Below are positions 30,565 through 64,000 of a stretch of DNA of 64,000 nt, piece by piece. The first letter of the stretch is position 1, and each line of letters opens with the position of its first letter. Origin of the DNA: Tachypleus tridentatus (lineage: Eukaryota; Arthropoda; Merostomata; Xiphosura; Limulidae); the NCBI RefSeq assembly GCF_004210375.1, contig NC_134834.1, positions 12,199,857-12,263,856 on the forward strand, in the 5' to 3' direction. The position numbers and the translations under genes were made by a program. Under the pieces are notes generated by a model. The model did no database searches, was not told the origin of the DNA, and was given only the letters and a program-made list of their open reading frames with translations.

Positions 30565-30897
30565 CTATTCTTTCTTCTCACTTTCGTCTTTGGTCTTCTC
30601 TTCGGAGATCTCACCCTTGTCATCTTTCAGTTTCTCGTCTTCTTTCCCTTCCAAATCCTTCTTTCCTTCCTTCTCTTCTGAAGCAACTTCTTTGTTTCCC
30701 TTTTCGTCTTCCTTCTTCGGGAGATGAGTGTTTAGATCCAAAGACTTCGACATCTCTTCCCAGTCTTGCCAATAACGGTCCTTCATCCTCTCTAGGAAAT
30801 TGACCAAATTGGTACAGTTGGTGTCCATATATTCCTTTATGTCCCCAAAGCTTACGTAGTAAAACTGGCACAAGTGAGAGAAAGCCACGCAGTCCAG
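30565..30897 (-). CDS. fax: fax exon 5 (terminal)
   Basis: Acceptor TTACAATTAG|CTGGAC. Codons 242-351 and stop. LDCVAFSHLCQF continues the GST-C-like domain; from about residue 302 the sequence becomes a highly charged Lys/Glu tail. Confidence 0.93.
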   Translation of the reverse strand: MDCVAFSHLCQFYYVSFGDIKEYMDTNCTNLVNFLERMKDRYWQDWEEMSKSLDLNTHLPKKEDEKGNKEVASEEKEGKKDLEGKEDEKLKDDKGEISEEKTKDESEKKE

Positions 30898-33800
30898 CTA
30901 ATTGTAAATAAGTATTCCACCATTAAACTGACAGTTCAAGTAAAAGGCATGCGTTACGTAGCATTTCACAATTTAAAAAACAACAACAAAAACTATATAT
31001 GCATTTCAAATGCATACATTTTTTAAAAAATAATCAACTTATAAAGATGGCAAATGATTCCACAAATATATATACATTTTTTATTATTATTAGTTTTTTT
31101 TTAAAGGAGTCAACTTACAAGATGAGGTTCATCTCCAAAGAAAAATAGTTTGTTCTGCAAGTATTCTGACAAAGCCTTCAAATCATCTTTACCAAACTGC
31201 AAAATTTCTTCGTTACTATGACGTCCCAGACCGTGTCCAATGGCCTTTTTGACGTTCTGCGTATATAAATTTAAAAATGATACTATTTCCCTGGAAACTT
31301 AATACAAAGAATTTGTGAAAGTCATTTAACTCGATCCAAAATTTTAGCATCTAGTTTCAATGAAGAACAGGACTTACACTTCTGAAACTCATCTTGAAAA
31401 AAAACTGAAGAATTCCTTTAGGAAGCTTAGAGTTTAGTGCTCGTTTCACATCCAGTTGGGCAACTTTTAAAAACTGGGCTGGGTGATTGTAGCGCCACCA
31501 ACGCATCACCCTGAAAGTAAAAATAATATTAAAAAAAAGGTTTACAAATTAAAGTATTTATTTGATATCCATCTTTCAGAAGCAGTAATGAAATATAAAA
31601 AACAGACGACAATCCATCATGAAGACGGATATCACGTCATGGAATTATTTAAAGTTTTTAAAACAATCACACAAAAACAGTCGCTAAGCACGATCCATAC
31701 AAGTAACATCTGCAATATTATACATATAACACTACAATACAATGTTACTCAGAGCCACTAAACACATTCCAACGATATATACATATAAAACACGATGATA
31801 ACTTAGAGGACTAGGCCTAAGTGGTGACTCCTTCCCCAGTCATTACATGTAGAAACGATGCACAGAGAAGACAGCGGTTCTCAAGCTAGAGGGGTTTAGA
31901 TCCTCACAATGACCTCTCCACTTATGTCACTCCCCAGGAGGTTCAAAGATTTACTGACACTCAGTCCAGAGGTTCGCCAGTTATAAATAGGCACACAAGT
32001 GTCAAGTAATGGTTTGGATATATGGAGGGTATTCAAAATTCTGTAAACGCCCATATAGGACACGTGCCAACTAACAGCCAATCGCGAGTGATCTTTAAAC
32101 GAAAAACTAATTTATGTATGAGGATACACACACAAATTAAGTGTAACAAAACCAATTTAAGAGAGGGCTGAAACAAAAACTCACCCCATGTACGTCTTAT
32201 TAATTCTACTGCAATATGAAATTCTTCTTTTAGGCTTAGCTTTAAATGTCGTCTGCCTAAAATGTTCACCCAAAATGGCAACGTAAAAATATATTATTAA
32301 TAATCCATTTAATTTTTTTTATAACAAAATGTAATATTTTACAATTACTGTAAAACACATAAAACATTACCTCGAAGAAGTCAGAAAAATAATACAACCA
32401 AACAATGTGTTCCTAACGCCACTGTAGTTAACAGTGTCAAACCTTGGTGTCAGTGTTAAAATTAGTTTAATTACTAGTAGAAGTTGGGATCACGTCTCCC
32501 CCTCACACAACAAATGGAAGTTTCCCAAGAGTTGCTTACGCCCATCAGAAATATCGATTGTGTCTGTTGGCACGTACCAGACTGTTACGGATGATTTGTC
32601 TGTTAGCAATACGTAAATACTGAGAGTTCGTTTACAAAATTTCTGCCGTATCCTTAAACTTTAGACTACAGACGGGCCCATAAAAAGAGGGGGAGGTAAC
32701 ACTATACTTCTCCCTTACAAAATACCTTGAGTTCTTAAGTGAAGTAACATAAATAAAAATTAATTGGAAATATTAGCTGTACTGTATGCACATAAGGAAC
32801 TCATTACCTTTGTACGAGGGTATTGGTTAGGCTTTAAAATACCACAGATACGTAGCGTTGTTCGAAATTCTCTCCCATTTATAGGGAGATATGAAGAGGG
32901 TTTGAATTTCGCACAAAGCTAGACGAGGGCTATCTGTGCTAACAGTCCCTAATTTAGCAGTATAAAACTAGATGGAAGGCAACTAGTTATCACCACCTAC
33001 CGCCAACTCTTGGGCTACTCTTTTATCAACGAATAATAATAATGGGATTGATCGATTATTATAACGCCCTCATGGCTGAAAGGACGAGCATGTTTGGTGT
33101 GACGGGGGATTCGAACCCGCGACCCTCAGATTACGAGTCGAGTATGAGAGGGAGATAGGGAACGGTTGTATTAAGAATGTTAAATAATGATGAAAACTGG
33201 AACAAAAGTTCGGCTTCATCGCATCATGTTTTCTCGAGCACTATACACCTGTTGGATACAACATACCCAGAGTTCCATGTTAAGCACTTTGCGTTAAGCG
33301 TTGAAAACATCAAAATAACAATTATCAATAAACTTTCGTTTTCTTCTTCTTACAGGTCACGCAAACATTTCCAGTAAACTAGCGAACCCCAAACGAACTT
33401 ATTTTGGTGCATGCTCGAATCCCGATACAACTCACGAGATCCGACGACCTTAAAAAGTATCTGATCTAACTATTTTAAGGCTTACCAAGATGTGTGGTTG
33501 TTGAGCATCGAATTGAAAGCATGACTAACGTTTTTCTGATCGACAGAGAGATCAACATCGAGATCTTTATCGAACTTCTTGCTCAGTTCACTAATAATGA
33601 TGTCTGAATCTGCTATTTCAGTTCCATTCAGCTCCACAAACGGTAACTGGCCTTTCTTTGACTTGTACTTCAGTCGGTGATCCACATTCTGAGGAGAAAA
33701 GTACAGTAATTTGTAAATAGAGATGTTTATAACTTACACTATTGGAACAACTAAAACAGTCAATAAGTACATCAAATAGGAACATTCTAGCCTAGTTAAT

Positions 33801-36800
33801 CTTTCTAGGCTTGTCTGTGCCACTCTGCTTTTAAGTTACCATCAAAATACCTGAAACTAAAACGAGAAGCATTTTAGTGAAATATAAAGTCTACAAATCG
33901 TGTGAATGGAACCACAGTAAACGTTTAACAACAGAGTGAAGGTTTGTTTGATTGACTGTTTGCTGCTAAGCACAGCGTTACACAATGCCCACCGTGATTA
34001 TCAGAGACCCTGTTTCGAGCGTTATAAGCCTTCAGACTTGCGGTCGCAGGGGAAGTAAAGACGGTCTATTTGAGAAGGTCCTTACGAGAAAGGACGGAGT
34101 AGTTTAAATTTTACAATAAGATCTATCTTACGTCGAAACTTCGAAAACTCAAGGGCATCACACGGTGTTTAGACACAAAAAACCTGGTTAGCAAACAAGT
34201 GAAAAATAAAATACGCCAATACGGAATACTGTTAAATCCACGTTAATGTTATTATTTGTAGTTACGTACACAGCTACACTGTAGGCTGTGCTCTGCTCAC
34301 CACGGGTATCGAAACCCGTCTTTTCTTAAGTTAGTGTCAGAATAATGTTTTGACACGTACGTAAGAAACTTTTTTTTAAAAACAAAGACGATGCTTCTCA
34401 CGTGACTTACCTGAATGAAGTATAACAAGATGATTCACCACGTGCTGACTCCCTCTGTATGTGACGTGATCACTTCCATTTTCAGATTTTGCCTAAAATC
34501 GAGGACAGTTTCGAAAATGATTTCCTTCTCCGACATCGGGAAGGTCGCGAGTACGAATCTCCGTCACAAACATACTCGCCCCTTTCAGTAGTTATAATGT
34601 TATGATCAATCTCATCATTCGTTGGTAAAATAGTCGCCCAGGGCTGTCGGTGGGTGGCGATGACTAAACGTCTTCCCTCTAGCCTTACACTGCTAAATTA
34701 GGGACGAATGGCGCAGATAGCCCTCGTGTAGTTTTGTGCGAAATATAAAAAACAGAAAAACAAAAACGAGCCGCGAGAAAATGAGCGCCATCTAATGTTT
34801 TTTTAAATTATTATCAACGTTACCGAAACTAAAATAAAATACTTGCAAAACAACCCCACATATTAAACTCCGACAAACTTTCTGACTAATTTATAAACTA
34901 AAGCATCCCCACATAATCACTCAACCGATTTTTTTCCCTTCAAACCCCCCCCCTTACTACAACACTAAAAAAGTTGTCCTTTAAACCCAGAAGGTCGTGT
35001 TCCTCGCTCAAGGAACGCGACTGATTTTAGCTATAAATATATAACGTGTTTACATGGTTTAGCTCAATCGCCCTTCGTTACAGATAAAAAGTATTTATGG
35101 TCATGAAACAATACAACGATAGTTTACATTTTTGTGAAACTGTTTTTCAAATTTTTTTTTAGTACCGGTTGTTTCTGTCCACTGTCAAAAATCGTGTTTT
35201 TTATTGATACACCATTGTGCTGAACCCGAACGTGAGGGCGCTGTTAACATTTAAGTCGGAGTTTTTGCATACGTCTTTCTAGTCGTCTTTTTTAATTTGC
35301 TAACGCTAATCGCTTGAACGAGTTGCACGTGACATACTCCACGTCACTTTAGAACTACGTGGTTCGGCATCACATACGATAACGAATGCAGTCTCCGAGG
35401 TTTTATTCTTACCAAACACACGTGAACTTCTACGAGCAGTTCACTTTTAAAACTAATTTAAAAAAAAAAAATGACAAATTTATCTATTTTCAAGTCCCAG
35501 TTTCATCGCAAGCTTCTCCTGGAATTAAAATTAGCAAAGCACTATAAATTACACAATTAAATATACAATCTAACTAACCATTTGAGCTACAATGATTGGT
35601 GCAAGGTTTCTTTACAATAAAACTGAAAATAACTTGTGACGTGAAGGTCTAATGGTATCATAAATAGTTAAAGAAAAATAAAAATACAACAAATATTTGA
35701 GCCACAGCTCAAATTGAATCAAATAGATTTAAAGGCTCACCGAACCGTTACAAATCTTTGTATACGAGTACAATAAATAACGTAACGCGCGAGTACAACA
35801 GTATTTGTGGCGCCGACACAGACAGCTCACTTTAGCATGCTATAATATAAACAAGAGTACGGAAACTATAAAAAACAAACAGGCATCCATGTGAAACGCC
35901 ACACACAACCAATTCCTCGATTTTCTCAAAGCAACCACGCGCTGTGTCCCCCCCCCCATCTCTGCAGCGTCTGTATTTACCCCCTCATTGTTAGTAGACT
36001 ACAGGGTTAATGACAACTGGATCAAAACTTTCACACTCTCACAAGAGAGAATCTACATGCCCAATAAACATTCCAATCATAATCACATGGCTTGAGAATA
36101 ACATCACCATAAGACACTTAACAGCTTATTTACGACACTCGTAGAAACAACAGTGCGATTAGGAAGGACCTAAAACCACTTCGCTTTCTATATTAAGCCT
36201 AAACTTGCAAGTACTAACTTCATAACCAAAAGATATTTAGAATATAATAATAATAACATTTGCAGCAAGGGGTGAGGACAGAAGTGTTTAAATCCTACGT
36301 ATACGAATCTGTGGTTTCGATTGGTTGGTTGGTTGCTGTGAAAACACCAGATTTCATTACACTTTAACCATATTAACGTTTCTTCTCGCGAGATTTTGTA
36401 AGACCAAACGATTCGACGACGAAGATTCATCTTGTCTTGGCCGAAGTTCTTATAGTCCACCAAATAATAATACATTTCTTTCTATCATGGATTTAAGGCG
36501 TGGGATGACGGCTGGTCTGACTAATAGCAACCTATCTTGAAACCGATACCCTAGAGTCATCAAGTAAGTTTTCAGTCGGTAAAATAACCATGCCCCTACT
36601 AACCCAGTCTTCATTTTTATTGTAGTCTCCTTTAAGGCATAAGCAAGAGATCCTGTGATAAAATATCGATGTTCGCAGGTTTCTGATAAACAGATCTCCG
36701 AGACAAAAACAAAAAAAATTCCCAATTTTGTGAAACTGAAGCACGTGCGGGTTAGTCAGCCCTCGTCGCTACTTTAGTTCAAAGTACAAAGTTGACAAAT

Positions 36801-37726
36801 ATCCGGTCACCCACAAGATCAGTAACTAGCTTCTAGACCTCATTATCACATTAACGGAATTGCACGTGCCCAACTGTTGCATTCGGACGGTTCGAAACAA
36901 GGTTTCTAAAAGGTAAACACGAGGTACTGGATGAATGATACATTAACTTTTCGTCAAGTTTTAACAGCTAAATTAAAACAAGGTATGCTATATAAATATT
37001 TCACTTTACTGACAAAGTCATATTTAAATCGGTCTTAGCTGTATACTTCGATAATTAATTAGTCAATTTATTTAGATTTTGGGAATTTATACGAGTTAAC
37101 ACTTTAAAAAGATATCTTTCTTTCCTCACGTAACTTCATATCTCTCCCATCTAACCTTATGATGTAAACACCTGCTAGGTTTTAATTTTGTACTATGTTC
37201 GTACACACTAATATAGACACACGCTACGAAAGACCATCTATTCTGGTGTACAAAGTGGCAAGTTTCAATATTTTCATGTAGCTTTCTTAATCGTAAGAGG
37301 GCGTTATTACTGGCCGTTCTCACTTTAACTTTTAATTTTACTTGTAAAAAGTTTACATCGAGTCTAAGATTACAGACGAATCTTAGTTCCAATACTAACT
37401 ATAAGAGGTGGAATTTTAAGTAGTTAAAACAATATTTAAAAAAATTAAATAAGCAATAACTGGTCAACTACACTAACCTCATATTTCACACCCGTCATTC
37501 GCAGCCAAGTTTCAACTTTCAGACAAAACGGAGACGGTGAAGGAACCACGGGACACCGCACAAACTGATACAAATAAACCGTGTCATTCTCGTAATCGGT
37601 TTTGTGAACAGAAGGCCTGGTTCTTGCTGGCTGTGTGGGGGCTTTATTCTCCGCTTTAGATTCCGTTGGAGTAGCACTATTTTTTGATGCCTCCGTATTT
37701 TCCGCGGCGGATTCGGCGTTTGTCAT
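30565..37726 (-). CDS. fax: Failed axon connections homologue (complete, five exons)
   Basis: Gene span; the exons are 37478-37726, 33486-33688, 31378-31510, 31119-31256 and 30565-30897. All junctions are GT-AG and the phases (0, 2, 0, 0) join to 351 codons plus stop. Residues 1-45 are a low-complexity Ala/Thr/Lys leader. Residues 48 to about 125 form the thioredoxin-like, GST-N/metaxin-like fold, with PSPSPFCLKVETWLRMTG at 62-79, KSKKGQLPFVELNG at 92-105 and IADSDIII at 108-115. The GST-C-like helical part runs to about residue 290. A Lys/Glu-rich tail (about 302-351) ends the protein, so it is probably cytosolic, with no signal peptide or membrane segment. In Drosophila, fax was found as a dosage-sensitive enhancer of Abl mutants and is neuronal; vertebrate FAXC is similar but slightly longer. 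Enzymatic activity is not established. The start ATG has G at -3. Confidence 0.93.
31119..31256 (-). CDS. fax: fax exon 4
   Basis: Acceptor TACGCAG|AACGTC, donor CTT|GTAAGT. 138 bp, codons 196-241. It contains GHGLGRHSNEEI and LFFFGDEPHL, typical of the GST-C-like part of this family. Confidence 0.92.
31378..31510 (-). CDS. fax: fax exon 3
   Basis: Acceptor ACTTTCAG|G completes Trp151. The exon is 133 bp, codons 152-195, beginning VMRWWRYNHP and ending KMSFRS at donor AGT|GTAAGT. Confidence 0.92.
31511..33485 (-). other. fax: fax intron 2
   Basis: 1,975-bp intron with a SINE-A copy (32901-33143). Small open frames inside it on both strands have no features. Introns 3 (31257-31377) and 4 (30898-31118) are short and repeat-free. 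Confidence 0.85.
32901..33143 (-). mobile_element. SINE family A in fax intron 2
   Basis: Body and box B are intact (GGGATTCGAACCCGCGACC), but the head is cut after TACGAGTCGAG. An ATAATAATAATG triplet expansion interrupts the CGAATAGTGGG motif. Confidence 0.92.
33486..33688 (-). CDS. fax: fax exon 2
   Basis: Acceptor TCCTCAG|AATGTGGATC, donor TCTTG|GTAAG. Codons 84-150 plus two bases of Trp151. It encodes the KSKKGQLPFVELNG and IADSDIII core, the most family-diagnostic segment. Confidence 0.93.
33957..34045 (-). mobile_element. SINE family B copy
   Basis: GCTAAGCACAGCGTTACACA, ATGCCCACCGTGATTATCAG and GCGTTATAAGCCTTCAGAC keep SINE-B order (reverse). Box B is degraded. Confidence 0.65.
34245..34325 (-). 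mobile_element. SINE family B copy
   Basis: TACACAGCTACACTGTAGGC followed by GCTCTGCTCACCACGGGTAT and CGAAACCCG (reverse box B). Confidence 0.7.
34538..34756 (+). mobile_element. SINE family A, 5'-truncated and diverged
   Basis: Begins at GAAGGTCGCGAGTACGAATC, continues through CATTCGTTGGTAAAATAG and GCTAAATTAGGGACGAATG, and ends with an AAAACAG tail. Confidence 0.88.
37478..37726 (-). CDS. fax: fax exon 1 (coding part)
   Basis: Codons 1-83, ending after Tyr-Glu at donor GAG|GTTAGT. It holds the disordered leader and the first strand and helix of the GST-N-like domain. Stop codons in frame just upstream are not obvious, but the ATG is the first good start of the conserved frame. Confidence 0.92.
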
Positions 37727-38010
37727 ATCGTGAGCGATATATGGACTAAACTTTCTTCAAAATGGCGTGCGGGAATCTAAAACAACAGCGGTAATACGGA
37801 TCTCAGGCGTTCTCACTACCCTATCTGCTTCTTGTCGATATTGTATCTGTCGGCGTGAGTTAGTAGGCGCGCATGTAGTTCTTTATTCTCATAGGCTGAA
37901 AGCGTCACGATACCTTTAGTGCGCATGTGTCAAAAATATGATGCTCCGAATGAAATGTCACCTACCGTGGATTTAAATGTAGACAGTGAGGACGGAATGC
38001 GCCTGTCACG
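37727..38010 (-). promoter_or_regulatory. Candidate fax promoter / 5' UTR
   Basis: The 280 bp before the fax start is richer in CpG than its surroundings (GGCGTGCGGG, TGTCGGCGTGAG, AGGCGCGCATG). No TATA box is at an obvious position. The call rests on location and composition; a further upstream non-coding exon cannot be excluded. Confidence 0.35.
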
Positions 38011-54441: not shown

Positions 54442-54679
54442 TTAACAAGAGCTACTTCTAAAACTCAACTTTGTATTTTCCGTTAACAGATCTTCACAAG
54501 AATGAGGACTCCAGATGTTCTGCTTCTGTAGATGTTCCAAGGCAGATGTCAGTTCTAGATTGGCAGCATCTAGAAGCTGAATCCTACGTTCTTGGGCATC
54601 TATTACTTTCTGTCTGTTAGCAATGATTCCTTGCATTTCTTGGTATTCCTGACGCAGTTCTTCCTCCACCTTCATTAAT
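54442..54679 (-). CDS. RasGAP terminal exon
   Basis: Acceptor TTTCCACAG|A completes an Arg codon; 78 codons plus stop. It holds the strongest family match (KVEEELRQEYQEMQ, VIDAQERRIQLLDAANLEL) and ends LTENTKLSFRSSSC. Confidence 0.9.
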
Positions 54680-57600
54680 CTGTGGAAATAACTCGACTAT
54701 TAATCATTTGACTGCAATTCCTTTTTTCTTTCCTTGCTAATGCCTGCCCTCTATGTGTTTCTTAAAGATCTAATTTAGATTAGGTTTTAATGCAAAATAT
54801 ATTGTTATTTTTCCCTCCATACAAAATTTGACACAATAAACATATCAAAAGCGTGACAAAATTTCTTTTATGTAGTATCCAAATTAAGATACTTATGATA
54901 TTATAAACCATGAAGATTTAAACTTATATGTGCCACACAAAAAATAGTAGAACTCATGGCTGCACGAGGACTGTTCCTTAGTTAGCTGGTCTGTAAGCCA
55001 TGCAAGACTCGCTACTTAAAATAAAGTGCGAATGAAACAACTAAATACATAAACTAATTTTTGCCTTTGACCTGGAACAAATATTACCATAAAAACTGAG
55101 TTTTTCTGTTTCGTTATTTCAAACTATGCTGAAACGTACTTAATGTTTCTGACAGAAACTACAACCTGTAAAAAAGTTTTACTTTGGTAGCCACTGGTTT
55201 ATGAGTGGTTTAAGAATGACAAATAATAGTGAATTACAAAATGAGTTAATACATGAAATAGATGTTTAGGAATAACAATATATGTGAAGAAAGTCATGAA
55301 TAGCTATAACTGTGATTTTAAACTGTATCAGAGGTTTATTATGCCTACAAGTTTCTAAAGATGGAGTTATAAAATTATGTTATTTCGTGAAGTCATAAAA
55401 TTTCAAAAGGACAAATTGGAGCTTATTAGCCAATCAAGGATGTCCCTTCCAGCTCCCAGCTATAACCATTCTTTACTATTCATTTATATCCACCCAGTCT
55501 ATTCTTGAACTCAGTTAAATTTTCTGTCTCTACAACCAATGAATGCAGTTCATTCCAGAAGCCAACCACCCTGTTTGAAAACTAATACAATCTAAACTGT
55601 AAGACAACTCCTATGTTGCCAAAACTTAAAGTTGTTCTATATTTTCCACTGCTGAACACAGAAACTTTAAGATTCATTCTAACTATTTCTTGCTACTTGT
55701 GTCCTGTATAAAGATACACTGTCATTCTCTTCCTAATGTGGGAACCAAGGTGGGCTCTTTAAAAGAATTGTAGGGGATACACCCCACATTTTGTGGGCAT
55801 GCATACTGTATTACTTAGGAAGCAAGCAGTCTTTAATAGTAAGAATTGTTTTAGGGTAGGTGAGGGGCACATTTTGGGGTTGCTTTAGCCACAACAAGTC
55901 ACCCCATACCACTGCACCTGTTTATATAAATAATAAAACTAATCTTTATGAACATTTAACTCTTTGTAATATATATATATATATATATATATATAAGTGA
56001 ATAAAATGTAAATATTCCTACCTAGTGATAATACTTTGAAACCTTTCATCTTTATGTCTCTGTTGATTGATCTGTTGCATTTTCACTTCACTCAGTCTTG
56101 TCTGTCTAGATATCGGGTTTCTGTTAGCACGGGTATCTGGTTTTGAAAGTTTGTTTTCTGCCTCTGTTAGCTTTCTTTGTAGATCTGTCATCAGTTCCTT
56201 TAGTGATTCTACTTCAACATGATACTGTTACAGGGAAAAGTACAGGAATTCATATCCACAGGACAGACTTGATGCATTGTTGTACATAAGCCAACAAGAC
56301 AAGTGGTATTTCAAAGTAGTCAATTCAAATTTCCAAAGTTCGCAAGGTCAGGAACCCAAAACTAGATGTTATTAATTTCTAGGTACGAACATGCAGATAT
56401 TAAACGTCTTGATTGAACAGGCTGAGTGGAATTTGTGTATCTCGTTGCATTTTAAAATAATTTTTCAAGTGCTTGAAGTCTCATGCACGGGTAAAATTAA
56501 TGACCAGGTGCCAAAACATTCAGAATAAATTGTGAAGGTGCATTTATCATCAAAGGTTTAACTTATCAACTCATAAGCATGTCATATACATAATCACAGT
56601 GTAGCAAGTGTCACTGGAGTACAGCCATTAGAGTGAGATCTGAATACGTTGAATCTATTCTTCATACTAACACTAGATAGGTTATTATTACAATAACTTC
56701 AAATTAAAAAAAGAGAGTTTTATATACTAATGGACAATTAACACATTCCAGAGTATACAGAACATACAGTTTTTCTGCAAAACCGACACATAAAAGTCTT
56801 TAATTTTCAGTTGTCAAACTGAAACAGTGAGGCAACTGACATGTACATTCCTGGTGATGGCACAGGTTATCGTGATTGGTCAAAAAGGTGTGTATTTATT
56901 GGAAAAGAAACATGCAGATGGGTATTACTGTAGAAATAAGATTATGGTAGTCAGAAAAGATAATAGTCATAACACCACTGAAGAAACCTCACAAACTTGG
57001 GCTGAGATGGTCACAAAGACATTGGCACAAGCCATGCAGACACTTGGATATTACTGATACAGACTTAGATATAATAACTCAGACCTTGTAAACATTGCTG
57101 TATATGTGAATATCTAAACATTATTAAACACGAGCCTTAGTAATTATTATACATACCACTGAACTAGTGAATACAAAATCAGTTACGGAATTTTAGCTTT
57201 TAAGAAATTATAACAACAAACTCGGACAAGACAGGTAAAAAACGCAAACACTAAAATATTTTCAATATTAATTCCTCACAAAAGAATAAAACAACAGTAC
57301 TTATTACAAACCAATTAAAATATATGGATATTTTCCTCAAAAGAGCAACACACTCTAGATGTATTATATACTTTAATTATAACGATGTTTAAAGAAAATA
57401 TAACTTCTCTCTTCCTGGCAAAGGTTTTCATTTTACTGGGTCTACAGAACAAACACATACTGTTAAACACTGTTTATTACATAACAGTGTGGAATAACCA
57501 AAGATAATTATATGAGTTACTGGTAGCTAACTGTATTCATTTTTATATTTTCCCAACACTTAACACTGAAACTGAAATAGAGATTTGTTGTAGATTAATT

Positions 57601-60600
57601 AAATTTCCAGTCATTACTATAACAGTAAATATTTACAATAATACACCAGATTCTTAATAAAGTAAAGTAATACAGTTGTAATTAATTTCTTTATAATGAA
57701 ATAATTGGAAGAAAAACTCGTGTAGTAAAAAGTTTAAATCTGAAGTGTTACATTTGAATATTTTTATGACTCATCAAACAAAGATATGGAAAAGAGGTTG
57801 GGAAAACCCTCGTAACATGAAATTAAAACATGCAACAGATGTGACTATAGATACAATGTCCTATAGCAAACAATAAACAGAAAACAAGCAAACAGAACAA
57901 CACACGTTCCCACATTTATAACAACACTTACCTCTTCTAGTGTTCTGTATCTTTTAGTTTCAAAAGAACTTGAATTGTGAAGTGGATTACACACTTGTAC
58001 ACCTTCTCTATGGAAGTCAGTTATATCTTATTAGGATTTCATTTTAAACTATCAAATAGCAGATTTAGAGTCTTTTAAAAATAAGAGGTTCTAATTGTAT
58101 AACAAAATCAGTTATTGTTTCATTACAAACATAGTTTATTTTATGTGATTGATTTTATTAATATTACAAGTTTCAAAACTAAGCACTTTTTCAGGTTTTC
58201 TATTTAAAAATAGAAAGAAACTTGCATGTGTTTCAGAGATTGTTTATTTTGTATTATTTTAATTGAAATTAACATTAACTCAGTTAGTGTCTTATAATAA
58301 TTATTTACCAACAAGAGAATGTAACAATAATTTTTTTAAATATATCAATGCTTTTAATATTTTATTTATCGAATAACTGATTTAACTCACGTCCAATAAA
58401 AGGAGAGTTATGAGAGACATTTAACCAATGAAATATAAAGTTAATCTTTGAATATATTCAAATCTTTGTTTGGATATTTGTGCAAAGCTACTTACACAAG
58501 GGCTATATGCACTAACCACCTCTAATTTTGAACTGTTAAACTAAAGGGAAGACAATTATTCCTCCACCAACTCATTGGACACTCTTCTTTTACCTAACAA
58601 TGAGATTTGACCATTACCCTGATAATGCTTGCAAGGGCCCAAAGCCCAGCAAATGTTTCATGCAATAGAAAATGAACTGTAAACCTTTGGATTCACAGAC
58701 TGGGAAAGTTTAATTCATTCACTACATGTATTTTTATTGTTTAATATCTAAGTCAATAAACTATAAAAGTAATATACGAACATTTTCAAATATTTGCTTG
58801 GATGTTTGTACTGTATAAGGACTATGTGTACTAATTTTGATCTGGCAAAACTAGATGGCATGCAGCTGACCAAAAGTACACACCATCAACACTTGAGTTA
58901 TTGTAATGAAACAGTGGAATTTGACCATAACTCTTATAATACACCCATGGCTCAGCACATGGTAACCACAAACCCTCACTTTCATTCCAACACACGAGTC
59001 ACTAGGCTGCATGACCCAATTTATTAAATATATCTAACATATAAGTCACTAGTCTGCATGACCCAATTTATTAAATATATCTAACACATAAGTCACTAGG
59101 CTGCATGACCCAATTTATTAAATATATCTAACACACAAGTTACTAGGCTGCATGACCCAATTTATTAAATATATCTAACACATAAGTCACTAGGCTGCAT
59201 GACCCAATTTATTAAATATATCTAACACATAAGTCACTAGTCTGCATGACCCAATTTATTAAATATATCTAACACATAAGTCACTAGGCTGCATGACCCA
59301 ATTTATTAAATATATCTAACACATAAGTCACTAGGCTGCATGACCCAATTTATTAAATATATCTAACACACAAGTTACTAGGCTGCATGACCCAATTTAT
59401 TAAATACATCTAACACATAAGTCACTTTACTACTTACCATTTTAGTACACGTGTTCGTTACTACTTACTGTTTTGGTAAACGTGTACGTTACTACTCATT
59501 GTTTTGGTAAACGTGAACGTTACTACTTACTGTTTTGGTAAACGTGTACGTTACTACTCACTGTTTTGGTACATGTGTACGTTACTACTCACTGTTTTGG
59601 TACATGTGTATGTTACTACTTACTGTTTTGGTACATGTGTATGTTACTACTTACTGTTTTGGTACATGTGTACGTTACTACTCACTGTTTTGGTACATGT
59701 GTATGTTACTACTCACTGTTTTGGTACATGTGTACGTTACTACTCACTGTTTTGGTACATGTGTATGTTACTACTTACTGTTTTGGTACATGTAATGCTA
59801 CTTACTCACTGTTTTGGTACATGTGTATGTTACTACTCACTGTTTTGGTACATGTGCATTAAGCATACTACTCACTGTTTTGGTACATGTGTATGTTACT
59901 ACTTACTGTTTTTGGTACGTGTAATGCGTTACTACTCACTGTTTTGGTACATGTGTAATGCGTTACTACTCACTGTTTTGGTACATGTGTATGTTACTAC
60001 TCACTGTTTTGGTACATGTGTATGTTACTACTCACTGTTTTGGTGCATGCGTACGTTACTACTTACTGTTTTGGTAAACATGTACGTTACTACTCACTGT
60101 TTTGGTAAACATGTGTATGTTACTACTCATTGTTTTGGTAAACATGTACGTTACTACTCACTGTTTTGGTAAACATGTACGTTACTACTCACTGTTTTGG
60201 TAAACATGTACGTTACTACTCACTGTTTTGGTAAACATGTAATGCTACTACTCATTGTTTTGGTAAACATGTACGTTACTACTCACTGTTTTGGTAAACA
60301 TGTACGTTACTACTCACTGTTTTGGTACATGTGTACATTACTACTCACTGTTTTGGTAAACATGTACGTTACTACTTACTGTTTTGGTAAACATGTACCT
60401 TACTACTCACTGTTTTGGTAAACATGTACGTTACTACTCACTGTTTTGGTAAACATGTACATTACTACTCATTGTTTTGGTAAACATGTACGTTACTACT
60501 CATTGTTTTGGTAAACATGTACGTTACTACTCACTGTTTTGGTACATGTGTACATTACTACTCACTGTTTTGGTAAACATGTACGTTACTACTCACTGTT

Positions 60601-62275
60601 TTGGTACATGTGTACATTACTACTCACTGTTTTGGTAAACATGTACGTTACTACTTACTGTTTTGGTAAACATGTACGCTACTACTCACTGTTTTGGTAA
60701 ACATGTAATGCTTACTACTCACTGTTTTGGTAAACGGTAATGCGTTACTACTCACTGTTTTGGTAAACGTGTACGTTACTACTCACTGTTTTGGTACACG
60801 TGTACGTTACTACTCACTGTTTTGGTAAACATGTACGTTACTACTCACTGTTTTGGTAAACATGTACGTTACTACTCACTGTTTTGGTAAACATGTACGT
60901 TACTACTTACTGTTTTGGTAAACATGTACGTTACTACTTACTGTTTTGGTAAACATGTACGTTACTACTCACTGTTTTGGTAAACATGTTCGTTACTACT
61001 CACTGTTTTGGTAAACATGAACGTTACTACTTACTGTTTTGGTACATGTGTACGTTACTACTCACTGTTTTGGTAAACATGTTCGTTACTACTCACTGTT
61101 TTGGTAAACATGAACGTTACTACTTACTGTTTTGGTACATGTGTACGTTACTACTCACTGTTTTGGTAAACATGAACGTTACTACTTACTGTTTTGGTAC
61201 ATGTGTACGTTACTACTCACTGTTTTGGTAAACATGTTCGTTACTACTCACTGTTTTGGTAAACATGAACGTTACTACTTACTGTTTTGGTACATGTGTA
61301 CGTTACTACTCACTGTTTTGGTAAACATGTACGTTACTACTTACTGTTTTGGTACATGTGTACGTTACTACTCACTGTTTTGGTAAACATGTACGTTACT
61401 ACTCACTGTTTTGGTAAACATGAACGTTACTACTTACTGTTTTGGTAAACATGTACGTTACTACTCACTGTTTTGGTAAACATGTAATGCTACTACTCAC
61501 TGTTTTGGTAAACATGAACGTTACTACTTACTGTTTTGGTAAACATGTACGTTACTACTCACTGTTTTGGTAAACATGTAATGTTACTACTCACTGTTTT
61601 GGTAAACATGTACGTTACTACTCACTGTTTTGGTAAACATGTACGTTACTACTCACTGTTTTGGTAAACATGTAATGCTTACTACTTACTGTTTTGGTAA
61701 ACATGTACGTTACTACTTACTGTTTTGGTAAACATGTACGTTACTACTCACTGTTTTGGTAAACATGTACGTTACTACTTACTGTTTTGGTAAACATGTA
61801 CGTTACTACTTACTGTTTTGGTAAACATGTACGTTACTACTCACTGTTTTGGTAAACATGTACGTTACTACTCACTGTTTTGGTAAACATGTACGTTACT
61901 ACTCACTGTTTTGGTAAACATGTACGTTACTACTCACTGTTTTGGTAAACATGTTCGTTACTACTCACTGTTTTGGTAAACATGAACGTTACTACTTACT
62001 GTTTTGGTACATGTGTACGTTACTACTCACTGTTTTGGTAAACATGTACGTTACTACTCACTGTTTTGGACTCCGTGAAAGTTGGTCTGCTGATCCTCGT
62101 CTTTCAAGCCTGTGAATTTTCCATAGCTGAGGATAACTATGAAAATACGATAACTGAGGAAGTCTTGATGGGGACCCTGATAGAAATGACTGTATTTGTG
62201 ATGTGGCTGTATCATTTTCAGACGATGGCGATGAAGGACAAACATTTCTGTCACATAGTTTCATGTTGCTGGTTT
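54442..62275 (-). CDS. SynGAP/DAB2IP/RASAL2-type RasGAP, C-terminal part (partial)
   Basis: Four exons (62062-62275, 57932-58007, 56022-56224, 54442-54679) join with compatible phases (2, 0, 2) into about 242 C-terminal codons. The first exon here is Ser/Pro-rich (SFLSGSPSRLPQLSYF, LERRGSADQLSRSPK). The next three give a coiled coil: YRTLEE|YHVEVESLKELM, then FQSIITR|LMKVEEELRQEYQE, VIDAQERRIQLLDAANLELT and SALEHLQK. The RLM-VEEEL and QERRI-LLDAAN-(R/E)L--AL pattern is characteristic of the DAB2IP C-terminal domain shared by SynGAP, DAB2IP, RASAL2 and Drosophila raskol. These proteins switch off Ras/Rap through a GAP domain and scaffold partners through the C-terminal coiled coil. Their PH, C2 and GAP domains would lie beyond 64000. 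Which vertebrate paralogue it matches best cannot be told here. Confidence 0.85.
55430..55740. mobile_element. Possible CR1-like LINE 3' fragment
   Basis: GTCTCTACAACCAATGAATG, CAGTTCATTCCAGAAGCCAA and CCACCCTGTTTGAAAACTAA resemble the non-coding ends of CR1/L2-type elements as I recall them. No reverse-transcriptase frame is present. Confidence 0.25.
55969..55995. repeat. (AT)n microsatellite
   Basis: About 27 bases of alternating AT, 27 bp from the donor of the coiled-coil exon. Confidence 0.95.
56022..56224 (-). CDS. RasGAP coiled-coil exon
   Basis: Acceptor CCTGTAACAG|TATCATG, donor ACTAG|GTAGGA. 67 codons plus two bases, beginning YHVEVESLKELMTDLQRKL and ending RHKDERFQSIITR. Heptad-like hydrophobic spacing. 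Confidence 0.9.
56225..57931 (-). other. RasGAP intron
   Basis: 1,707 bp without SINE-A or array. A plus-strand 76-codon frame (56827-57057) has no recognised product. Confidence 0.7.
57932..58007 (-). CDS. RasGAP 76-bp exon
   Basis: Acceptor ACTTCCATAG|A, donor GAAGAG|GTAAGT. One base completes Gln, then 25 codons (EGVQVCNPLHNSSSF and ETKRYRTLEE). The phase fits both neighbours. A rival acceptor giving a start at 58026 would break the phase with the upstream exon. Confidence 0.75.
58465..58965 (-). mobile_element. Two very old SINE-A relics
   Basis: 58465-58660 keeps ATATTTGTGCAAAGCTACTT, AAACTAAAGGGAAGACAAT and ACTCTTCTTTTACC. 58790-58965 keeps AAACTAGATGGCATGCAGCT and CACCCATGGCT in the same order. 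Both lie in a RasGAP intron. Confidence 0.55.
58991..59424 (-). repeat. 47-bp intronic minisatellite Q with AATAAA in each unit
   Basis: Nine copies of TAACACATAAGTCACTAGGC, TGCATGACCCAATTTATTAA, ATATATC (plus strand). On the transcribed strand every unit carries AATAAA (complement of TTTATT). Confidence 0.95.
59430..62061 (-). repeat. 31-bp intronic minisatellite R: tandem 5' splice-site copies (~85)
   Basis: Read on the gene's strand, each unit is CCAAAACA|GTGAGTAGTA, then ACGTACATGTTTA. The final 8 exon bases (62062-62069) and the donor of the RasGAP exon are identical to it, so the array is a run of exon-intron junction copies abutting the real junction. By eye about 23 units have GTAAGT, about 5 have ATGAGT and the rest have GTGAGT. 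Plus-strand open frames of up to 222 codons are artefacts of the period. Confidence 0.96.
62062..62275 (-). CDS. RasGAP Ser/Pro-rich exon, flanked by two minisatellites
   Basis: Acceptor with a T-rich tract, CTGAAACAG|AAACC; donor CCAAAACA|GTGAGT. 214 bp, 70 full codons, phase 2 at each end. The exon stops where array R begins, and array S starts about 60 bp beyond its acceptor. An alternative acceptor 7 bp inside (ACCAG|CAAC) would shift the phase. Confidence 0.72.
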
Positions 62276-62332
62276 CTGTTTCAGTGTGGAGAAAAAAAAG
62301 TCAATTTTAAGTTATATTGTTTCTCACATACT

Positions 62333-64000
62333 GATTGATAAGTTGTATTGTTTGTCAGATGTTGAATGATAAGTTGTGTTGTTTGTCAGATGTTGAATGA
62401 TAAGTTGTGTTGTTTGTCAGATGTTGAATGATAAGTTGTGTTGTTTGTCAGATGTTGAATGATAAGTTGTGTTGTTTGTCAGATGTTGAATGATAAGTTG
62501 TGTTGTTTGTCAGATATTGAATGATAAGTTGTGTTGTTTGTCAGATGTTGAATGATAAGTTGTATTGTTTGTCAGATGTTGAATGATAAGTTGTGTTGTT
62601 TGTCAGATGTTGAATGATAAGTTGTGTTGTTTGTCAGATGTTGAATGATAAGTTGTGTTGTTTGTCAGATGTTGAATGATAAGTTGTGTTGTTTGTCAGA
62701 TGTTGAATGATAAGTTGTATTGTTTGTCAGATGTTGAATGATAAGTTGTATTGTTTGTCAGATGTTGAATGATAAGTTGTATTGTTTGTCAGATATTGAA
62801 TAATAAGTTGTATTGTTTGTCAGATGTTGAATGATAAGTTGTATTGTTTGTCAGATATTGAATAATAAGTTGTATTGTTTGTCAGATGTTGAATGATAAG
62901 TTGTATTGTTTGTCAGATGTTAAATGATAAGTTGTGTTGTTTGTCACATACTGATTGATAAGTTGTGTTGTTTGTCAGATGTTGATTGATAAGTTGTGTT
63001 ATTTGTCAGATATTGAATGATAAGTTGTATTGTTTGTCAGATGTTGAATGATAAGTTGTATTGTTTGTCAGATGTTAAATGATAAGTTGTGTTGTTTGTC
63101 AGATGTTGAATGATAAGTTGTATTGTTTGTCAGATGTTAAATGATAAGTTGTGTTGTTTGTCAGATGTTAAATGATAAGTTGTGTTGTTTGTCAGATATT
63201 GAATGATAAGTTGTGTTGTTTGTCACATATTGATTGATAAGTTGTGTTGTTTGTCAGATATTGAATGATAAGTTGTATTGTTTGTCAGATATTGAATGAT
63301 AAGTTGTGTTGTTTGTCAGATGTTGAATGATAAGTTGTGTTGTTTGTCAGATATTGAATGATAAGTTGTGTTGTTTGTCACATACTGATTGATAAGTTGT
63401 GTTGTTTGTCAGATATTGAATGATAAGTTGTATTGTTTGTCAGATATTGAATGATAAGTTGTGTTGTTTGTCAGATGTTAAATGATAAGTTGTGTTGTTT
63501 GTCAGATGTTGAATGATAAGTTGTATTGTTTGTCAGATGTTGAATGATAAGTTGTATTGTTTGTCAGATGTTGAATAATAAGTTGTATTGTTTGTCAGAT
63601 GTTGAATGATAAGTTGTGTTGTTTGTCAGATATTTAATGATAAGTTGTATTGTTTGTCAGATATTGAATGATAAGTTGTGTTGTTTGTCAGATGTTGAAT
63701 GATAAGTTGTATTGTTTGTCAGATATTGAATAATAAGTTGTATTGTTTGTCAGATGTTGAATAATAAGTTGTATTGTTTGTCAGATGTTGAATGATAAGT
63801 TGTATTGTTTGTCAGATGTTGAATAATAAGTTGTATTGTTTGTCAGATGTTGAATGATAAGTTGTGTTGTTTGTCAGATATTTAATGATAAGTTGTATTG
63901 TTTGTCAGATATTGAATGATAAGTTGTGTTGTTTGTCAGATATTGAATGATAAGTTGTGTTGTTTGTCAGATGTTGAATGATAAGTTGTGTTGTTTGTCA
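62333..64000 (-). repeat. 31-bp minisatellite S (~54 copies, runs off right edge)
   Basis: Plus-strand unit GATAAGTTGTGTTGTTTGTC, AGATGTTGAAT. It lies just upstream of the acceptor of the 62062-62275 exon. On the transcribed strand most units contain CTGAC (branch-point-like) and no AG. Variants are GTGTTG/GTATTG, ATGTTG/ATATTG and occasional CACATACTGATT units, which do contain AG. Confidence 0.96.

Follow-up and report, generated by a model that had tools for sequence, protein, structure and literature searches.

How does an exon come to end in some 85 tandem copies of its own splice donor, and does the gene make any use of them? The question is raised by a 64,000-nucleotide stretch of the genome of the horseshoe crab Tachypleus tridentatus (contig NC_134834.1, here C10; positions 12,199,857 to 12,263,856 of the forward strand; referred to below as the window), in which a predicted exon of a RasGAP gene on the minus strand runs directly into an array of 31-bp units, each consisting of the last 8 bp of the exon, a donor motif, and adjoining intron sequence. 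In all probability, this donor array is a minisatellite of the type called “mirage” in amphioxus and has grown from the exon edge. The features needed for the argument are listed here in window coordinates.

59427..62069, minus strand: donor array, unit CCAAAACA followed by GTRAGTAGTAA and a variable 12 bp, 85 units (TRF, unit list, and unit statistics)
62062..62275, minus strand: predicted exon A of a SynGAP/DAB2IP-type RasGAP gene, 214 bp, ending ..SPK-CA in phase 2 (joins exons B, C, and D in frame; one difference from the second copy of the locus)
57932..58007, minus strand: predicted exon B, 76 bp, with the donor GAG/GTAAGT (frame joining)
56022..56224, minus strand: predicted exon C of the same RasGAP gene, within the DAB2P_C match (frame joining)
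54442..54679, minus strand: predicted exon D, the last coding exon, with the stop codon TAA (frame joining and DAB2P_C match)

Tandem Repeats Finder (TRF) reports 84.6 copies of the 31-bp unit at 59427-62069, and cutting the sequence at the unit core yields 85 units, or 84 once the degenerate last unit is dropped. Thus, the ~85-copy repeat beside the exon that an earlier note on this DNA had described is real. The first unit is the edge of exon A itself: its first 8 bp, counted from 62069, are the end of the exon, which reads ..AGTCCAAAACA on the minus strand and is followed by the intron start GTGAGTAGTAA. At the donor position, GTGAGT is found in 56 of the 84 units, GTAAGT in 23, and ATGAGT in exactly 5, where the same note had counted “about five”; GTRAGT is intact in the remaining 79.

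The boundary that the units repeat is supported by the reading frame. Predicted exons A, B, C, and D share one joined frame with an A-B junction of ...SPK-CA / A-GAA..., in which the base missing at the phase 2 end of exon A (..PK-CA) is the first base of exon B. The exon end at 62062, as placed previously from the letters alone, is therefore consistent with the frame leading into the three exons that follow; the probable exon start, 62275, is the base after ..AAACAG. Each unit accordingly crosses a frame-supported exon-intron boundary, with 8 bp of exon and the donor. The joined A-D protein matches the Pfam domain DAB2P_C (E = 2.1e-26) at residues 89 to 216, which correspond to exons B to D, exon A lying outside the match, and eleven more exons upstream in the gene, in either locus copy, have matches to a SynGAP sequence. 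To judge from these matches, the host gene of the donor array is a minus-strand SynGAP/DAB2IP-type RasGAP gene.

Searching the whole assembly (2.17 Gb in 205 contigs) for the 19-bp unit core CCAAAACAGTRAGTAGTAA, where R stands at donor position +3, gives 109 exact matches, versus 0 for the reversed control, which excludes chance. All 109 are located within the two copies of the donor array, so the unit arose locally. A dispersed satellite, considered as a source of the unit, is rejected on the same count (109/109).

The direction of growth is best seen at a second exon of the same gene, which lies outside the window.

C10:12281779-12283151: second donor-spanning array of the same RasGAP gene, 49-bp unit, 28 copies

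In the second copy of the locus, this sister array occupies 12452544-12452985 (442 bp, about 9 copies). It shares 32 bp with exon E5, and its unit reads ..CCACTTAACC(A/G)GTATAAAGCTTTCAGACAG up to the exon end and GTTAGT beyond it; of the 49 bp, about 30 belong to conserved RasGAP coding exon, to which the donor GTTAGT is added. The exon tail encoding ..PLNRYKAFRQ, with GTTAGT after it, is present in both locus copies. The coding part of the unit aligns to a human SynGAP query (..ILPLNRYKAF.. versus ..ILPMELYKEF..), which argues that the exon was the source of the sister array; on this alignment, the direction at E5 is from exon to array. By analogy, the same direction is likely for the donor array of exon A. 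An origin of the array at the exon edge, as proposed in the earlier note, is thus supported both by a unit that is unique to the locus and by a sister array carrying ~30 bp of RasGAP coding sequence.

The locus offers a direct view of how fast the donor array changes. Exon A is matched again 173 kb away, with one difference in 214 bp; the duplicated stretch starts right behind a 500-N gap (C10:12412478-12412977) and repeats the sequence from C10:12238639 onwards, with 98.7% identity over a 20-kb block. On the evidence of the gap, the second copy is probably the other haplotype, left unpurged in the assembly, which is the simplest reading; the alternative is a true recent duplication. The first copy has 85 donor units and the second has 41, i.e., a length difference between haplotypes if the second copy is indeed an allele. 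The two copies contain 31 and 24 unit types, of which only 6 are common, and the longest shared run is 3 units. In both, the first donor unit has GTGAGT, and the degenerate last unit on the intron side differs by one letter, with the inner units reshuffled between them. This comparison of units points to homogenization of the inner units with the boundary unit exempt. The donor array is a hypervariable variable-number tandem repeat (VNTR) with fast minisatellite turnover.

These properties are those of the amphioxus mirages, which the excerpts of two reports describe as tandem repeats over exon-intron boundaries that differ between haplotypes and apparently leave splicing regular (PMC3087553, PMC3902484). 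The amphioxus cases are Adh3, the globins BflGb6 and BflGb9, TnC, and PGBD5. As in amphioxus, the repeat in Tachypleus crosses the boundary and differs in length between copies, but it is longer, with 85 and 41 units against the 6 and 3 given for BflGb6 in the excerpt of PMC3087553, and the RasGAP gene has two donor-side cases. Ordinary intronic VNTR minisatellites share with it the unit size, the change in copy number, and the mosaic of unit types, but the RasGAP donor array takes in the exon edge and the donor. It looks like a large member of the known mirage class, with all of the features examined in place. The locus thereby suggests that boundary-spanning minisatellites, described in amphioxus, also occur in a further animal genome, where one gene has more than one of them. 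In a limited literature search, the matches listed included no report of a minisatellite as a U1 decoy and no title on horseshoe-crab tandem repeats of this kind.

Whether the donors matter to the gene can be approached from the variation among units. Letters were counted by column over 124 units, 84 from the first copy and 40 from the second, each copy without its degenerate last unit. Non-modal letters make up 54 of 744 in the six GTRAGT columns and 192 of 3,100 in the remaining 25 columns, with 50 inserted bases in addition, so that the two rates are about equal; the hexamer is no more conserved than the remainder of the unit, whereas a selected U1 site would be. This comparison, which the earlier note had set out as a check, points towards a neutral array. 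Of the 54 non-modal hexamer letters, 44 are at +3 and 10 at +1, all of the latter changes from G to A; A and G at +3 both splice, and A at +1 destroys the donor. What is steady in the unit is a block of 19 bp that is wider than the donor and not centered on its essential bases, and the only common loss within it is that of the +1 G. Selection on the donor hexamer is unsupported by these counts. Thus, the earlier interpretation holds as far as seeding at the exon edge is concerned but not in the special keeping of the donor core.

By pairing with U1, many of the units should be able to act as donors. The calculated duplex energies with the 5' end of U1 are -7.3 for GTGAGT, -7.2 for GTAAGT, and -4.2 for ATGAGT, and the last unit, with ATG/GTAAGT, reaches -10.7. 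For comparison, the RasGAP gene has eight other predicted donors with energies from -5.7 to -12.7; those of the GTGAGT and GTAAGT units fall within this range, and the later donors would therefore be competent by U1 pairing. Read-through past the first donor gives CAG TGA, and the protein stops at ..SRSPKQ in both locus copies; every later donor takes in this SPKQ stop, even where the length of the extension is divisible by three (26 of the 81 donors counted, the first included). Given that reading on, or splicing at a later unit, meets an immediate stop, exon A would normally be cut at the first unit, and the full protein would come from the first donor only.

The proposed course of events is as follows. 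A 31-bp stretch, with 8 bp from the end of exon A and 23 bp from the start of its intron, would have been duplicated in tandem, and the duplicated unit would then have expanded and contracted by unequal exchange or slippage. With exon A presumably cut at the first unit, use of the later ones would cost the protein its C-terminal coiled coil; most of the later donors would be silent, either because exon definition favors the first or because nonsense-mediated decay removes the products. In all likelihood, the donor array is neutral or carries a slight cost.

Several observations weigh against this account. The exon share of the donor-array unit is only 8 bp, and at exon A growth of the array into the exon is possible. 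Use of the first unit is a prediction from the reading frame. With +3 left out, the hexamer has 10 non-modal letters out of 620, fewer in proportion than the variable half of the unit (187/1,488), although the steady half has only 5 out of 1,612 in its 13 columns outside the hexamer; this leaves room for weak selection on the hexamer. Finally, the first 19 bp occur in 8 types and the last 12 bp in 33 among the 124 units (binomial p = 4e-8, types being taken as independent events), a contrast that is beyond plain drift. The variable half contains CpG and quasi-palindromes, its types scoring 3.24 versus 2.38 for shuffles, and this combination, which has been partly tested, may make these 12 bp mutable. 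The idea that the contrast is special to the donor array was rejected, as columns of both kinds are found together elsewhere too. Among 21 array rows chosen from 67, the variable-to-steady block ratio of the donor array, 7.3 in one locus copy and 4.5 in the other, compares with 1.6 to 4.5 for 17 others and with 8.1 and 11.8 for two arrays with low variation.

Two further arrays lie on either side.

58989..59426, minus strand: 47-bp array abutting the donor array on its downstream side (TRF, motif counts)
62308..64000, continuing to C10:12268487, minus strand: upstream 31-bp array with a different unit, 204 copies, 32 bp from the presumed acceptor of exon A

The 47-bp array has 9.3 copies in the first copy of the locus and 28.3 in the second, with approximately one sense AATAAA per unit (9 in 441 bp and 27 in 1,331 bp, respectively). 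Such a motif in at least half of the units is found on the minus strand in 2 of 47 arrays, including this one, and on either strand in 6 of 47. The array upstream of exon A has 204 copies versus 115 in the second copy of the locus. Arrays thus enclose the short exon A on both sides, with just 32 bp of nonrepeat intron (62276-62307) on its upstream side.

The most serious competitor is a splice-donor VNTR that is active, as in the human gene IFI6 (6-16, G1P3), where a minisatellite offers multiple splice donor sites and, according to the excerpt of PMC4526556 (citing Turri 1995), two downstream repeat units serve as donors. In the RasGAP gene, several units would likewise be used, producing length-dependent truncated proteins or targets for decay. 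This is possible but doubtful: the units stand at the exon end with donor motifs intact in 79 of 84, and their U1 pairing is in the range of the other predicted donors of the gene, but later units here are only putative donors, each bringing an immediate stop even when the extension is a multiple of three. The amphioxus mirages, moreover, are reported in the excerpt of PMC3087553 without disturbance of splicing, and the core of the RasGAP unit shows no clear sign of selection. A reversed order of events, in which an ordinary intronic minisatellite was there beforehand and then took over the exon end and replaced the original donor, appears unlikely. It would fit a unit with only 8 bp of exon, a region full of arrays, and a last unit with the stronger donor; however, the sister array at E5, with its ~30 bp of conserved coding sequence, argues for growth from exon to array there, and the same GTGAGT is found at the first unit of both locus copies. 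Long arrays are error-prone in assembly, and this locus is present twice beside a 500-N gap, but in both copies the array sits at this exon edge, and the order of the units differs between them, so that a chance neighborhood or an assembly artifact has next to no probability.

U1 suppresses early polyadenylation, and the ~80 sense U1 sites of the donor array lie directly upstream of 9 sense AATAAA motifs, which on the minus strand are so regular in just one other of the 47 arrays. The donors might therefore act as a landing pad for U1 that silences the downstream AATAAA array, or they might titrate U1. We consider this very improbable: counted on either strand, AATAAA-rich arrays are frequent enough (6 of 47) for such a neighbor to be due to chance, the second copy combines fewer donors (41) with more AATAAA (27), so that the two lengths do not rise together, and the hexamer has no special conservation. 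A bolder version, to which we give slightly less credence still, would make the pair of arrays a natural U1 platform, in which the two lengths set the amount of truncated RasGAP lacking the coiled coil, via intronic polyadenylation or alternative donors. If that were true, gene control in the Tachypleus genome would include splice-edge arrays as a widespread and rapidly changing layer. The locus amounts to a very large natural competition experiment, with ~80 near-identical donors in one transcript and two lengths in one assembly.

An array at an exon edge is less surprising against the local background. Counting arrays with a period of at least 10 and a length of at least 150 bp, 67 minisatellites make up 47% of 297 kb (C10:12199857-12496999, both locus copies), and at this coverage an occasional array at an exon edge is to be expected. 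Their units are mostly 25 to 60 bp, and several copy numbers differ between the locus copies. In the 15 placed exons, two donors and no acceptor are overlapped by arrays. When the arrays are placed at random in a simple model, with unit lengths of at most 60, exon edges judged by eye, and no correction, 0.59 boundary-spanning arrays are expected among the 9 in the gene span, and 2 are observed (P = 0.115; for donors alone, P = 0.034), i.e., there is no firm excess of arrays at exon edges. Nor do array units show a general excess of donor motifs, the best scores against shuffled units giving a mean p of 0.44 on the plus strand and 0.38 on the minus strand (39 arrays). Genome-wide, triples of AGGTRAGT number 4,769 versus 2,357 for the reversed motif; a few big arrays dominate these counts, and no genome-wide enrichment is therefore claimed. 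Among the matches listed, each of the two motifs has 3 triple loci by 6.6 Mb of contig C1. The donor-motif triples among the matches listed, all on C1, form about 20 loci at array spacing, none of them between 10.2 and 105 Mb, and arrays with AGGTRAGT seem to be spread unevenly along this contig.

Three paralogues of the RasGAP C terminus are found elsewhere in the genome, at ~153.90 Mb of C1 and at ~123.87 Mb and ~49.08 Mb of contig C2; whole-genome duplications may be their source. Reading at these loci covered 6.7 kb on C1 and two shorter stretches; exons C and D have matches there, exon A has none, and TRF gave just one 25-bp AG run. The window also contains a second gene at 30568-37756 on the minus strand, presumably failed-axon-connections/metaxin-like, whose exons match GST_N_4 and GST_C_6 (one match in four below the Pfam cut-off). 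In that stretch, TRF finds a single repeat of 43 bp, at 31697-31739.

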